64,000 bases of DNA from Ochromonas danica (lineage: Eukaryota > Sar > Chrysophyceae > Chromulinales > Chromulinaceae). The notes under the pieces were generated by a model. That model was not told the DNA's origin. It did no database searches and saw only the letters and a list, made by a program, of their open reading frames with translations. Positions 24,053 through 38,664 of the stretch are shown piece after piece; positions within the stretch are counted from its first letter, which is position 1; each line of letters starts with the position of its first letter. The stretch covers positions 1 through 64,000 of the forward strand of contig VKHL01000098.1 of the NCBI GenBank assembly GCA_015146655.1, given 5' to 3'. The position numbers were made by a program, and so were the translations under genes.

Positions 24053-25248
24053 GTTCGGGTTGGATAGTATTCGCTGCTAAGCAGCCACTGCCTGTTATCC
24101 TTTGATAGTATTGACGACAAGCTTCTTCTACTTTATTTATCTATCGCTTTGCTTAAATGTGTAGAGAGTTTCAAGAAGATAGTGTTATTTATTGAAAGAA
24201 CAAAGTAAGATAATTCGCTTGGCTATTCGAACCATGCGAACAGATTGTTGAGAGCTTTAACCAGAATTAGAAACAGGCAGTCGAAGAGTCATGAATAGGC
24301 GAATGATAATAACATCGTCTTCACTATTTCCCACCGAAACGGCCAATTCCTAATTTCAACAAATGTATCTTACTGTACGTTCTAAACACAAAAACCGCAC
24401 ATCATCACTTTTCATTCACTTTTTACTCAAGCGGCTCCGAGCACCAACAGAGTAGATGTACAAATTCCAGAAAGGAAATTGAAATAGGTGCAGATTATGA
24501 GAAGAAAATGCCAAATAGTCTACCAACTATTTGACCGTTTGGTGCGCTGCACTTTAATTTACATTGTCCAACTCTGTTGCTTTTATTGAGGCGGCACAAT
24601 ACTGGAATACACAGCAGATCTATGCTTCAGTTTTGATGATCAACCTCGAGTTGTTGTCTGCTTCTTTCTCTTTCACTTCTTTTACAAAAAGCTCTTTTCA
24701 CATTAGAATTCAAGACATCTTTCTCAAATAAGTTATGTTTCTTTGCTTGTTTTCCATCATAACTTGAGAGGAGGAAGGGTTTTCTTGAGAATCTTCATCC
24801 AAGACGGAAGTTCTATCTCAATATAATAAAAGTACCACCCTATATAAATCATTGTCGCAATGACATTAACATATAAATAACCTTAACTATTAACACAATA
24901 TTAAATTAATAAATAAATCAAGGTCGAATAAGCTGTAGAAGATCACCTTAATTGGTAACCATCGCCTTATTTGGTAACCAGAGTTTCCAATTAAATAGCT
25001 AAGCGAATCAATTATTGGTTGCTACTACTACTACAGCAGAGAAAAGCTAACTTATCACACCCCGGTTTAGGGCTCGTTTCACTTCTACTTAAGCAAGTAT
25101 AGCATATCTTGCAGAGAAGTCATATCAATGGAGCGATCACATAAAAAGTCATTTGTATATCAAGTTCATTTCGCATCAATCTTCTACAAACCGTTTCTTA
25201 ACTTCGGCATTCTACCACTATCAACTTTAAATAAGCAAATCAATCAAA
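24053..25248. other. 1.2-kb AT-rich intergenic region carrying an introner-like element
   Basis: No convincing gene was found. The region lies tail-to-tail between the PH-domain gene and the NTF2-like gene, so it holds two 3' ends, and the remainder is AT-rich. One short polar minus-strand frame (about 24830-24740) was seen but is too weak to call. The only structured feature is the terminal-repeat element at 24934-25089. Confidence 0.5.
24934..25089 (-). mobile_element. introner-like short element, copy 1
   Basis: This 156-bp element has 7-bp terminal inverted repeats GTAGAAG/CTTCTAC and is flanked by TAAGC on both sides (24929-24933 and 25090-25094), a likely target duplication. It shares several blocks with the copy at 35443-35561: GTAGAAGATCACCTT, CAGAGTTTCCAATTAAAT and CCCGGTTTAGGG. 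Read on the minus strand it begins GTAGAAG and ends CTTCTACAG, so it offers GT and AG ends. In that orientation it lies about 160 nt downstream of the stop of the gene at 25249-26028, so it could be a 3'-UTR intron. It encodes nothing. Confidence 0.75.
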
Positions 25249-31533: not shown

Positions 31534-32662
31534 ATGAAAGCAGTGGTTCTTTTCCTTGCCGTCTTGGTTGCAATCTTGAATGTTGCCTTTGGATTTGCTC
31601 CAGTTTCCTCTGTATCTAGAACATCTAGTCGTGCCTCCACAATTGTCATGGATGGCAAAACCCGTGAACTGCGTGATAGAATCAAGAGCGTGAAGAATAC
31701 CCGTCGTATCACTGAGGCCATGCGTCTTGTTGCAGCTGCTCGTGTTCGTCGTGCTCAAGAAGCAGTTTTGCAGACAAGACCATTCATTGCCACTTTACAG
31801 AAGGTATTCATCTACTTTGAATTTTTGATTTCCCTGGAGAATGCTCATCATGTCTCTGCGGTGTGCGAAGTCATACCGTGTTGTCTTGGATGCTTGCACT
31901 GAAGAAGACTTGGAGTTGCCTATCCTCGAAGTTCGTGATGTGAAGAAGGTTTCTTTGGTTCTTGTTACTGGTGATCGAGGTCTCTGTGGATCTTTCAATT
32001 CTGCCGTTATCAAGGCTGCCACCCGTCGTATCACCAAACTGCAGGAGCAGGGTATCGATGTCCAGCTGATCTTGGTTGGTCGTAAGGGAGAACAATGGTT
32101 TGGACGTCGTAAGGTCCCAATTAGTGGCACCTTTGTGCTTGGTAGCTCTCCTAACCCCGAGGTCTGCACTAACCTCGCCAATTTCCTGATCGCACAGTTC
32201 CTAACTAAGGAAATCGATGCAGCTGAGATCATCTACACCCGCTTCAACAACTTAATCAGTTGCGAACCTAGCATTCGTACTCTCTTACCTTTGTCTGTAA
32301 CTGGCATTGAGAGTGAAGATGATGAAATCTTCAAGCTAACTACTGCAGATGGTAAAATGGTGGTCAAGAGAACTAGTGAAGAAAAGAAGCCTGAGTATTT
32401 CCCTGATTATATCTTCGAAGATGAGCCTGCAAAGATTCTCAACACTTTGCTCACTCTATTCTTTGGTGGAAATATTCTGCGCTGCTTGCAGGAGTCCGTC
32501 GCCTCTGAGTTGGCATCCCGAATGACTGCTATGCAGTCCGCCTCAAACAATGCCCAGAAGATTACCACCGTTTTGGGCCAAATTTATAACCGTGCTCGTC
32601 AAGCATCTGTTACTCAGGAAATGTTGGAGATTGTTGCCGGAGCAAGCACTGTGGATGCCTAA
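31534..32662 (+). CDS. atpC: plastid ATP synthase gamma subunit
   Basis: Exons 31534-31803 and 31871-32662 (67-bp intron) give 353 residues. Gamma is the rotor shaft of CF1. The leader is a signal peptide ([18 protein letters not shown]) followed by FAPVSS, the aromatic +1 motif of plastid targeting in complex red-lineage plastids. The mature part starts near [19 protein letters not shown]. It continues with [28 protein letters not shown] and [16 protein letters not shown], and ends in the classic [19 protein letters not shown]. At the position of the land-plant redox loop with two Cys the sequence is [16 protein letters not shown]. The disulfide pair is therefore absent, and thiol control of the enzyme is not expected. 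The splice was placed so that the protein aligns without gaps to other plastid gamma chains. Confidence 0.95.
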
Positions 32663-33717: not shown

Positions 33718-33988
33718 GGTATGGTCGATACTGTGCAAGAAATAATATCGAGCAGGAGCATGACTGCCAAAAGCACCTTTTGCTTGCTGTTGCGTGGGAA
33801 TCCACAGGAAGGAAAATCCCGAAATCCCGAAATCTGTGAAAGCGTGGGGCATGCGTGCGTCACCATAGACCTTCGCTTCGTCTGCCTTCGATTCAACAAC
33901 GAACCAACAGTCAGTCCTCCCAGAAGAATAGCTGTCATTAATACTTCACTCCATCTGTCCATTAACTATTAAAGAATCCGTCATCGTC

Positions 33989-34808
33989 ATGGGAGGCTCG
34001 CCATCTGTTACAGCTTGTCCAAGTATGGAAGGGAAGGGTCTTAACGTCGTGCCATCCACAGCAGCCAGCGTGCAAAAAGATTCCTTTGACCAGATCTTCG
34101 CCTTTCTCACACCCATCTATTACACCACTGAACCCTTGCTAGACTTTGAGAAAGAAGTGGTCATCAAGACATGGAAGGAAATCATCAATGCTCGTGCTGC
34201 AGAGTTTTGGAGAATCAAGAAGGAGAATGCCGATATCCCCTGCAAGACTCCCATTCAATACTTTGGCAACCAGTTCTTTATTCGACTCCTCGAAGTCAAT
34301 CCCACTTGCAAGGGAATGTTCACTGGAGGCACCATGTCGAGAGGGGAAACCTTCGTGAAGATGATCTCTTTCATAGTGGACAAGCTGGAGGACGATGATC
34401 GTCTGGCAAGGACATTGGAGACTCTAGTGAACTCTCATTGTCGCATGGGAGTGAAGGCAGTGGAATGTAAGTGGACTACATGGTATTTGCTTTATTCTGT
34501 TCACGAGCATGGATGTTGACTTTGTGTTGATTGTGTGTCATACAGTTAGTGTATTCGGGGATGTATTGTTCTTCACTCTGAAGAAAGTGCTTGGACCAGA
34601 ATACACTCCCATCGCCCATGGAGGTTGGGTGAAGGTCTATTCAAAGCTTCTGACAATCATGTTGCCAAGGGTGATCGCCATCGAGTACAAGCAAAGAGAT
34701 CATATTGTGAAGGTGTCTCATGAGCGCCAAGATGTTGTTTTGGGCAAAGCAAAGGGCCACGAAGGAGAGGAAGACAAACGCCCAGGTTGTCCAGTGGAGC
34801 TGGAATGA
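33989..34808 (+). CDS. globin
   Basis: Exons 33989-34466 and 34546-34808 (79-bp intron) give 246 residues. The join completes a Phe codon in AVE|FSVFGDVLFF. The core matches eukaryotic-type 3-on-3 globins: VVIKTWKEIINA in helix A, FFIRLLEVNPTCKGMF at the C-D corner, then VNSHCRMGVKAVEF with the expected proximal His. These are followed by LKKVLGPEYTP, the Trp of HGGWVKVYSKLL and a final helix. Flanking extensions of about 55 residues before and 50 after the core are polar. Starting MGGSPS, it might be N-myristoylated as some algal and invertebrate globins are, an inference from sequence only. Ligand and role (oxygen, NO) are unknown. Confidence 0.85.
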
Positions 34809-35248
34809 AAGTGGCATTTCTTGTTGTTTTTGTTGTTTTTGTAGTTGTAGAAGATCTTTACCACTTCTATTACATGATTGTTCATAAAGAACAATTTTAT
34901 TCTAGCTTATTCTATTTGTTCAGTATTATATTTTGCTGAACGATTTTCTGTTACCGTCACGTTTTTAATGAGTAAACAAGTTATAGTTCGCTTTTGCTTA
35001 TCTTGTAAACCTAACTTGTTAATGAGTTTCTGTTTCTTGAGATTGTGGAAAGTGGAGAGGCGGTTGTTTACGGGAATGATTGGTTTTAATCAAACTACTC
35101 ACAGCAATTAGCTAGCGCACTAGGCTACTGCTTTTCTAGTTCTACAATGTAATACATTAAGGGGGAAAATTTAGAAATGGAATGATAATTGCACTGCACA
35201 GCCCGTTGTTGCCGCCCGCTATGCTTGCTATAGCTTCACTGTCGCTCT
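34809..35248. other. 3' flanks, no gene seen
   Basis: This region lies downstream of the globin gene and of the small minus-strand gene. The 24 bp at 34847-34870 begin GTAGAAGATC and end ACTTCTAT, like the two ends of the introner-like element joined together, but the match is too short to call. Confidence 0.45.
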
Positions 35249-35649
35249 TCATCTTCTTCGCTGGTCGTGTGCTGCTTGTTTCGATGGGCAAATAGGGATC
35301 ATATTCGGATCTTCACTGCGCACCTGCTTGTCGGTGTCAGCAATGACATCTTCGGCATCATAATCAGATTCGTTGATGACCTCGATATGTATCCCAAAGA
35401 CTGAAGTTGAACCTCGAAGACACACTCCTAATATAATGGCTTAGTAGAAGATCACCTTTAATTGGCTATCAGAGTTTCCAATTAAATGCTATGGCTAGCA
35501 GGGATGGTAACTTAACTACAACTAACCCGGTTTAGGGGCTCACACCATCCTTCTACAGTACTGGCTTCCTTGCCACACAAAACTCTTGTGGGATGAGAGA
35601 CAGGAGGCAAGTCAACTTTGGCCACTTTGTCCAGTAAAGAACTCACCAT
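35249..35649 (-). CDS. small hypothetical protein interrupted by an introner-like intron
   Basis: Exons 35649-35562 and 35439-35249 give 92 residues; the 122-bp intron is almost exactly the repeat element at 35443-35561. The donor reads GCCA|GTACTG and the acceptor CTAAG|CCATT. The join GKEA|TIILGVCLRG is in phase, and both exons show protein-like composition (VAKVDLPPVSHPTRVLCG; SVFGIHIEVINESDYDAEDV). Removing the element plus one copy of its AAGCCA duplication also leaves an open frame, as expected if the intron arose by insertion. The N-terminus is uncertain: a further upstream exon encoding SVNFYQKCQRR may join through a GT-AG intron ending at about 35655. No family was recognised. Confidence 0.55.
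35443..35561 (-). mobile_element. introner-like short element, copy 2 (functions as an intron)
   Basis: This 119-bp element has GTAGAAG near one end and CTTCTAC near the other. TGGCTT stands on both sides (35437-35442 and 35562-35567) as a likely target duplication. It shares GTAGAAGATCACCTTTAATTGG-like, CAGAGTTTCCAATTAAAT and CCCGGTTTAGGG blocks with copy 1. Read on the minus strand it supplies a GT donor just inside its first end. The AG acceptor comes from the target duplication (AAGCCA), a pattern described for introners that borrow one splice site from the target. Confidence 0.75.
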
Positions 35650-36058
35650 CCGCCTGGATAAACAAGGCCCAATCATTATCCAGAAAAAAACTTGTACAGC
35701 TTAAGAGGAATACGATTGTCGCTGTTGTACATTCACCTCTGACATTTCTGGTAAAAGTTGACTGAAGCCTATAGTCCTCCAAAAACAGGTGTAGTGAATC
35801 AATCAAAATAATAGCTTTTCATGAAATGCCTGATTTGGAGAAGGAAATTGCTGATTCAGATTTGAAAGATAGAATTGTTTTGATATTTTGGTGAGTGCTC
35901 AAAGTGTTTGTGGTATTTTCGGTGTTTCCGCCACTTGTATGAGTTACAACTCGGAATATTCAAGTATCATGGATCAACAATCTCTCTCACCGAAAATTAA
36001 GAGAAGAGAAAAGAAGAGAAAAGAAGAGAAGATAATAAGTAGAGACAAAGCATTTTTC
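35650..36058. promoter_or_regulatory. divergent upstream region, small gene / surface protein
   Basis: This AT-rich head-to-head spacer may contain an extra 5' exon of the small minus-strand gene (about 35740-35775). AAGAGAAGAGA purine tracts lie just before the surface-protein start. Confidence 0.4.
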
Positions 36059-38664
36059 ATGTTAACACGCTTATATTTGACTCTTTTTTTGTTCTTCCTT
36101 GTCTTTGTGTTGGAAGTGAAAGCTATCTGCTCGGAAGAAATTTCCTCGAAGGACAGGGAGGAAGCGCACAGCAGGAGGGAGACTACAGCGAACTTCCCCA
36201 CCTTTCAGAACTTGCAGGGCTTCGCTCAGTTGAACACTAGTCAAGCCAGGAGAAATGACGGTGAGCTGTATTATGTGGTACCAAATTCTGCTTTCTATCT
36301 AATATTCTGCTTTTCATCTTTTTATTTTCCCGTCTTGTATGAGAAGTGCACAATAGTGATCGATCAGACCACCCTTTGCGGGATTCCATCTCGACTGACT
36401 CGTCCTATTTCTATATTTGCCCATATTACTATGCAAGTCAGACATTCAGTGCTTCTTCGGACAGCACACCAAAGTGCATGTTCTACATGAATGGAGGCAC
36501 CCGGGTGACGGTGACTAGTTGCGGCGAAAGTGGATCTGGAGGATATTGCTCAGGAGATCAGTATCTTCGTCTCACGGATGCTTATGGTAACCAGCTGGCT
36601 TCAAGTGACAATGCATGTGGATATTGCTCCCGTTTAGAATACACTTCTTGGTGGGGAAGCCCAGCGTCATTGTTCTATATTTGGCAAGGCTGTTATTCGC
36701 GCTATTCTTGTAGCGGCGTGGTGGCCGTTATTTCAAGCAACATTCTTCCAAACACCATTTCGAGCAGCTCGCCCACTGCTGCTCCAACCGCAGTTCCAAT
36801 AAGCCGCACGTCGTCTACATACTACGGCTATACTGGTAACTACTACTATTACTATTGCGGTTATTACTCTGCTAGTAATACCAACTCAGCTACTGGTTAT
36901 GATACCACACCACAGTGCTATGTATCTGTGTGTGGCGGCTACACCATTTCATTGGGGAGCTGCTCGAGCTATTCGTATGGTTATATTTCTTCATACTGTT
37001 CTGGCAACCAGGTGTTGAGGTTGNNNNNNNNNNTTTCATTGGGGAGCTGCTCGAGCTATTCGTATGGTTATATTTCTTCATACTGTTCTGGCAACCAGGT
37101 GTTGAGGTTGCTGGATAGCTATGGTAACGAAGTAGCTAGAAGTACTACAACATGTGGTGGCTGTGCAGAGTTGACCTATACAGTTCCCTCTTACTCATCT
37201 TGTCAGACATACAGTATCTGGGAAGGTTGTTATTCCTGGGGTAGTTGTGGTGGTCAAGTGGGCATTCATTTGTACATGACAACAACGTCTCCAACGATAG
37301 CTCCGAGTCGAAAGCCAAGCATTGCTCCAACCGCAGTTCCAATAAGCCGCACGTCGTCTACATACTACGGCTATACTGGTAACTACTACTATTACTATTG
37401 CGGTTATTACTCTGCTAGTAATACCAACTCAGCTACTGGTTATGATACCACACCACAGTGCTATGTATCTGTGTGTGGCGGCTACACCATTTCATTGGGG
37501 AGCTGCTCGAGCTATTCGTATGGTTATATTTCTTCATACTGTTCTGGCAACCAGGTGTTGAGGTTGCTGGATAGCTATGGTAACGAAGTAGCTAGAAGTA
37601 CTACAACATGTGGTGGCTGTGCAGAGTTGACCTATACAGTTCCCTCTTACTCATCTTGTCAGACATACAGTATCTGGGAAGGTTGTTATTCCTGGGGTAG
37701 TTGTGGTGGTCAAGTGGGCATTCATTTGTACATGACAACAACGCCTCCTACGCTTGCCCCTTCCCCTTCGCCTTCCCCTCGGCCTTCTCGTCGCTTTACC
37801 AGATCTCCAACTATGGCGCCTAGTGCTGATGCTCTTACCACATTTATATTTACACTGAGTGTTTCTGTCCAAGATGGCTATTCTCGTTCGGATGATTTGG
37901 CACAATCAATCTGGGTTCAATCCTTGGCAGACGTGTTGATGATACCGCCAAGGGAGGTTGCTTTCATTTCCATTTCGACTTTTGACTCCACCAGTGACAG
38001 AGCAGATGCAATACGTTTGGAAGATAGCAACACCGTGGTAACGTTGCAAGTGAACATGATGCTGTCTGACTTGTCTCTTCCCTATGGAGCAACGCTAGAT
38101 GATGCCTTGGACGAGGTGAACAGTGACATCAGTTGGCTGGAGAGTTCCAGCGGTCTTCAGAGCCTTCAGAGCACATTGATCAGTGTGGCGAATGGCTTGG
38201 GAGACTCTAGCTTCAGTGCGAACGTGACAGATTTGCAATGCAGCACAGTGGTGATAAGCACTCTAGTGGATGGAAATGATGAGGATGGCGATGGAGGGTC
38301 TGCCGGAGTCGTGTTCTATGTGCTGGTGGTGCTTGTTCCCATCGTTGGTGTTTCTGTGTTGTGTGCTGTGTGTTGGTGGTTGGGGAGCAAATGTAGTAAT
38401 GGAAGCTCATCACCTCCAGTTGTTGTGGTGGACCAGCAGCAAGATGTTTCGTCTCAAGCTGCAGCAGGCAGCAACAATAACAACAACGAAAACATTGAGC
38501 AGAACATGGCGAGAGATTTGGAATCAGCTCCAGTTCTGGCGTTGGAGCTCGTCACAATACAGCCTGGCGCTGAAGGAAACCTGTCAACGGGAGAGATGGT
38601 TCACGCTATTCCTATTAATATCTTACCTAATCACAAGCTCCCCTCTGCACCTCCTTTACATTAG
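36059..38664 (+). CDS. secreted/type I membrane protein with tandem Cys-Tyr-Ser-rich modules
   Basis: Exons 36059-36260 and 36347-38664 join in phase. The product starts with a clear signal peptide (LYLTLFLFFLVFVLEVKA). Three extracellular modules of about 150 residues follow, the first diverged, the second and third identical. Each has a Tyr-rich start (YTGNYYYYYCGYY), paired Cys (CYVSVCGGYTISLGSCSS) and CGGCAELTYT…CQTYSIWEGCYSWGSCGGQVG. A Pro-rich hinge, a β-rich domain and a single transmembrane helix (VVFYVLVVLVPIVGVSVLCAVCWWL) come next, then a polar cytosolic tail. The layout suggests a cell-surface receptor or adhesin; the family is not recognised. Module 2 as printed carries a 10-N gap and a 77-bp duplicated flank, which add 29 false residues while keeping the frame. 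Confidence 0.75.
36781..37739 (+). repeat. recent tandem duplication of a 456-bp coding module
   Basis: From GCTCCAACCGCAGTTCC (36781 and 37324) through GTACATGACAACAACG the two modules appear identical at nucleotide level, apart from the gap artefact. No silent differences were seen, so the duplication is recent or kept uniform by gene conversion. Confidence 0.85.
37024..37033. other. assembly gap (10 N) with duplicated flanks
   Basis: The 77 bases before the gap (36947-37023) are identical to the 77 bases after it (37034-37110). Two overlapping contig ends were therefore placed side by side instead of being merged. With one copy and the Ns removed, module 2 equals module 3 and the tandem period becomes 456 bp. 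Confidence 0.95.

Follow-up and report, generated by a model that had tools for sequence, protein, structure and literature searches.

Is the short element at the centre of this locus an intron that was made by a mobile element, or is it a mobile element lying in a dead gene? It was found in a stretch of 64,000 nucleotides, here called the window, and an initial annotation had described it as introner-like, i.e., as an insertion that had become an intron between two exons. The mobile character stands, being borne out by a repeat family, by inverted ends and, for three of the six full copies, by a flanking duplication, whereas the introner character does not. With a probability of roughly 0.8, we are dealing with a non-autonomous MITE-like DNA transposon that was inserted into a now-decayed copy of a trypsin-like peptidase gene, and not with an intron of a working gene. 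MITEs are miniature inverted-repeat transposable elements.

The window

The features that matter for the argument are compiled in Table 1. A few others may be mentioned in passing. A gene for the gamma subunit of ATP synthase is located at 31829-32656; among the best 120 of 3031 relatives, two bear labels consistent with Chromulina nebulosa (taxid 96789, 75% identity) and Ochromonas (taxid 2985, 67%). Both belong to the Chrysophyceae, which makes a chrysophyte-like alga the likely host organism. At 36780-37760, an open frame harbours a pair of long direct repeats (244 nt, 100%; 271 nt, 98%) and a run of 10 N (37024-37033): possibly a tandem repeat that is gapped or was misassembled. ARAGORN, used with the bacterial code, detected no tRNA within the 64,000-nt window, and an Rfam search of 34000-37000 returned three weak matches, all far below the gathering scores and none of them on the element.

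Table 1. Coordinates of the element, its flanks, its sister copy and its host in the window
Feature	Position	Strand	Remarks
Left TGGCTT of the flanking (target-site) duplication	35437..35442	+	Chance of a repeat of at least 6 bp in random 12 + 12 nt flanks, 1.7%
MITE-like element, 119 bp	35443..35561	+	Core GTAGAAG...CTTCTAC, 35444-35556 (113 bp)
Inner hairpin of the 119-bp element	35457-35486		TTTAATTGG/CCAATTAAA
TGGCTT, right copy of the flanking duplication	35562..35567	+
Sister copy of the element, complete with both ends, 154 bp	24935..25088	+	TAAGC on both sides
Decayed trypsin-like peptidase pseudogene enclosing the element	35181..35779	-	Frameshift-aware alignment to P0007, residues 54-255

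The element and its flanks

The anatomy is as had been described: a 119-bp element with the inverted ends GTAGAAG (35444-35450) and CTTCTAC (35550-35556), framed by a 6-bp duplication, TGGCTT. How much weight such a duplication can carry depends on what chance provides. Random flanks taken from the window contain a repeat of at least 5 bp in 6.9% and of at least 6 bp in 1.7% of the cases. The longest exact repeats in the 12 + 12 nt flanks of the six full copies of the family are TGGCTT, TAAGC, TCA, TGGAT, ACT and CAC, that is, 6, 5 and 5 bp in three of them and at most 3 bp in the remaining three. For three out of six copies to carry a repeat of at least 5 bp, the chance is about 0.006; if the copy that prompted the finding is left aside, two out of five remain, with a chance of 0.04. 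Between the inverted repeat and the flanking repeat there are 0 to 5 unmatched bases, depending on the copy, and the boundaries of the element and the length of the duplication are therefore only loosely defined.

A low-copy and diverged family

The genome-wide multicopy family that the initial annotation had expected does exist, though it is low-copy and diverged. With the full copy from contig C246 as query, 12 places in the 31.2-Mb assembly of 337 contigs matched at E ≤ 10, including the query itself and both copies of the window; scoring covered all 12 candidates, and the number is a lower bound. Six copies have both ends, two on C98 (both in the window) and one each on C246, C26, C75 and C40, while no fewer than six of the 12 places are occupied by partial or degenerate copies. 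The full copies have cores of 107-154 bp with GTAGAAG-like and CTTCTAC ends (GTGGAAG in one case), and their pairwise identity is 50-85%, a range somewhat lowered by the 16-nt flanks that were counted in. A short non-coding unit that is present in multiple copies with terminal inverted repeats is what defines a MITE, and this is what the six full copies and 12 places amount to. The family is real and low-copy and, judged by the divergence of its copies, it is old.

In pattern searches, the exact two-ended pattern CCCGGTTTAGGGCTC...CTTCTAC matched only once, at the copy at 24935 of the window. The left-end pattern, with up to 3 mismatches, was found at 5 places versus 0 for the control; the right-end pattern, with up to 2 mismatches, was found at 12 places versus 7 for the reversed control, which means that many of the single right-end matches are due to chance. 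The copy on C26 (L035) contains the telomere-like CCCTAACCCTAA at the position that is occupied by TTGG in other copies.

Do other copies lie in coding sequence? A hexamer coding score, a rough measure for which 22 long open frames in the window served as the training set and which was applied to about 900 nt on each side without gene models, revealed a segment scoring at least 12 within 150 nt of a full copy only at 35443-35561 (13.8, at a distance of 54 nt and on one side only). In the roughly 900 nt scanned per side, no such segment comes within 150 nt of any of the remaining five. The copy at 24935 has its nearest coding-like segment at a distance of 178 nt (score 80.6); weaker ones were seen next to the copies on C246 (score 7.4, 8 nt away) and C40 (score 9.3, 22 nt away). 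The C75 copy is an unproved candidate for an intron in its own right: a 123-aa open frame adjoins it, and a start-like MKFVFFLFF occurs downstream, at a distance of about 430 bases. On the same contig, L041 (2194-2454, +) is an inverted partial copy of the adjoining minus-strand frame, with MDTDEFLVHYDHIKQKISFNNVLDN in common. Introners form, within one genome, sets of introns that resemble each other up to near both splice boundaries; from the flanks scanned here, none of the six full copies emerged as an intron.

The host, a decayed peptidase-like gene

The minus-strand flanks of the element are related to a protein family with intact open frames of 297 aa (C154) and 295 aa (C94), which is called trypsin-like here because these intact relatives match Pfam Trypsin_2 with 18.0 and 16.7 bits, i.e., below the curated cut-off of 27.6. 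The flanks themselves, which had been taken for exons, are not intact. After removal of the element and one duplication from the sequence, alignment to P0007, the best-fitting of three relatives tried, reveals four frameshifts in the host, near 35727, 35678, 35632 and 35298, of which three are upstream and one is downstream of the element in the coding direction. It further has 49 gap positions, corresponding to about 49 missing residues, the GSSGG motif among them. Alignment to P0003 and P0001 yielded three frameshifts at about the matching upstream points. The intact genes L031 and L033, serving as controls, showed zero events against any of the three proteins; P0003 and P0001, however, are essentially the products of the L031 and L033 genes, and only P0007 is an independent control. 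One frameshift could be a single-base assembly error; four of them plus a deletion can hardly be explained in this way. An introner is inserted into an exon of a gene, and this host is a pseudogene.

A paralog on C198 (L029) lacks the element. Its DNA is 68% and 73% identical to the window on the two sides, and it is also broken, the comparison with P0007 revealing one stop and four frameshifts. About 70 bases before and about 40 bases after the insertion point, the matched blocks come to an end, and direct alignment is weak there, which makes this paralog fair yet imperfect evidence of an empty site.

The intact peptidase-like gene on C154 is present in two equal-scoring copies, L031 and L032 (64461-64646 and 65869-66054), some 1.4 kb apart, and a long low-complexity (SL)n frame lies between or beside them. 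The L031 open frame includes, without a single difference, the protein P0003, which EukProt lists under Prorocentrum lima; perhaps this protein stems from a contaminant of a dinoflagellate culture.

Splice sites and reading frame

The proposed intron runs on the minus strand from 35561 to 35440 and comprises 122 nt; the insertion plus one duplication comprises 125 nt. The difference is 3 nt, so that an open spliced frame and an open empty site are one and the same condition. The earlier argument that an open empty site is unlikely by chance thus counted one fact twice, and a fact that here is nearly always true. As remnant coding sequence lies on both sides, almost any choice of splice sites appears open: the three GT and three AG that lie no farther than about 15 nt from the ends can be paired in nine ways, and in eight of these one or more frames stay open over ±60 nt. 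The spliced junction GKEA/TIILGV indeed reads as had been claimed, but for the same reason it says little.

The proposed GT and AG do exist. The donor GTACTG, however, falls within the five bases that follow CTTCTAC; these bases are different in the rest of the full copies, all five of which lack this donor. Both sites, GTACTG and the acceptor TACTAAG, are weak when compared with two introns elsewhere in the genome: GTAAGT...CATACAG in a globin-like gene and GTAAGG or GTGAGT...TTAACAG in the L033 gene. The globin-like gene, named by eye, extends over 33932-34808 (+), and its intron begins at 34467.

Since the reading frame is lost three times upstream of the element, splicing the latter out restores no working protein. 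The 101-aa spliced product had no protein match at E ≤ 1 (2 candidates, with only proteins of about 55-177 aa being eligible); as the L033 gene has a counterpart of 99% identity in EukProt, proteins of the same or a very close genome were covered. Within its own genome, the product matches only its two halves and the C198 paralog.

Weighing the explanations

That the element created a spliceosomal intron in a live gene, with the acceptor AG lying in the duplicated target, is very improbable. A GT, an AG and an open spliced reading are at hand, and PMC9860276 describes introners that co-opt a splice site from the duplication and add codons, as well as families as small as 5 copies; low copy number alone is accordingly not exclusionary. 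Against this stand a host that is frameshifted on both sides of the element, a frame that stays open with almost every nearby GT/AG pair, poor splice sites with a donor that the other full copies do not share, a product without a protein match in the eligible size range, and diverged copies of which no other full one has been shown between exons. There is, further, a slight chance that the locus yields a pseudogene transcript or a non-coding RNA and that the element is removed from it as a new intron; if this were true, it would be a nascent introner in a chrysophyte-like alga.

It is also unlikely that what we see is a fragment of some longer, broken-up repeat instead of a MITE complete in itself. 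The copies on C246, C40 and C68 (L034, L043 and L022) have about 45 bases with a hairpin in common past CTTCTAC (CTTATTAG...TAATAAG) and look as if they had descended from one larger repeat, and the share of partial or degenerate places fits the idea. This extension, however, is absent from both window copies and from those on C26 and C75, and in both window copies and in C26 the flanking repeats are close to the ends.

By its appearance, the element looks like an ordinary insertion, and its sequence offers no good reason to call it an intron. A short non-autonomous element (ends GTAGAAG/CTTCTAC, duplication of 5-6 bp in three of the six full copies) would have entered a copy of the peptidase gene, presumably by cut and paste with the transposase supplied in trans. 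In which order the insertion and the decay took place is a matter of inference, and the element is probably not spliced.

Relation to MITEs and introners

The family resembles MITEs in being about 107-154 bp long and non-coding, in its short inverted ends, its internal hairpin and the direct repeats in three of six full copies; it differs from them in that the inverted ends measure just 7-8 bp and the duplication has no fixed length. A literature search for papers pairing miniature inverted-repeat elements with Chrysophyceae found none.

With the introners carrying TSD and TIR, as presented in PMC9860276, it has in common the short element, the inverted ends, the flanking duplication and, probably, an algal host. 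In contrast to these, no set of similar introns was found here, the host is a pseudogene, the splice sites are not a feature of the family, and the sequence gives no sign of splicing. According to that source, introner families were kept only if they had at least four introns.

The main use of this low-copy, MITE-like family, in what is probably the genome of a golden alga, lies in repeat annotation. The locus also illustrates that an element in a pseudogene can mimic an introner.
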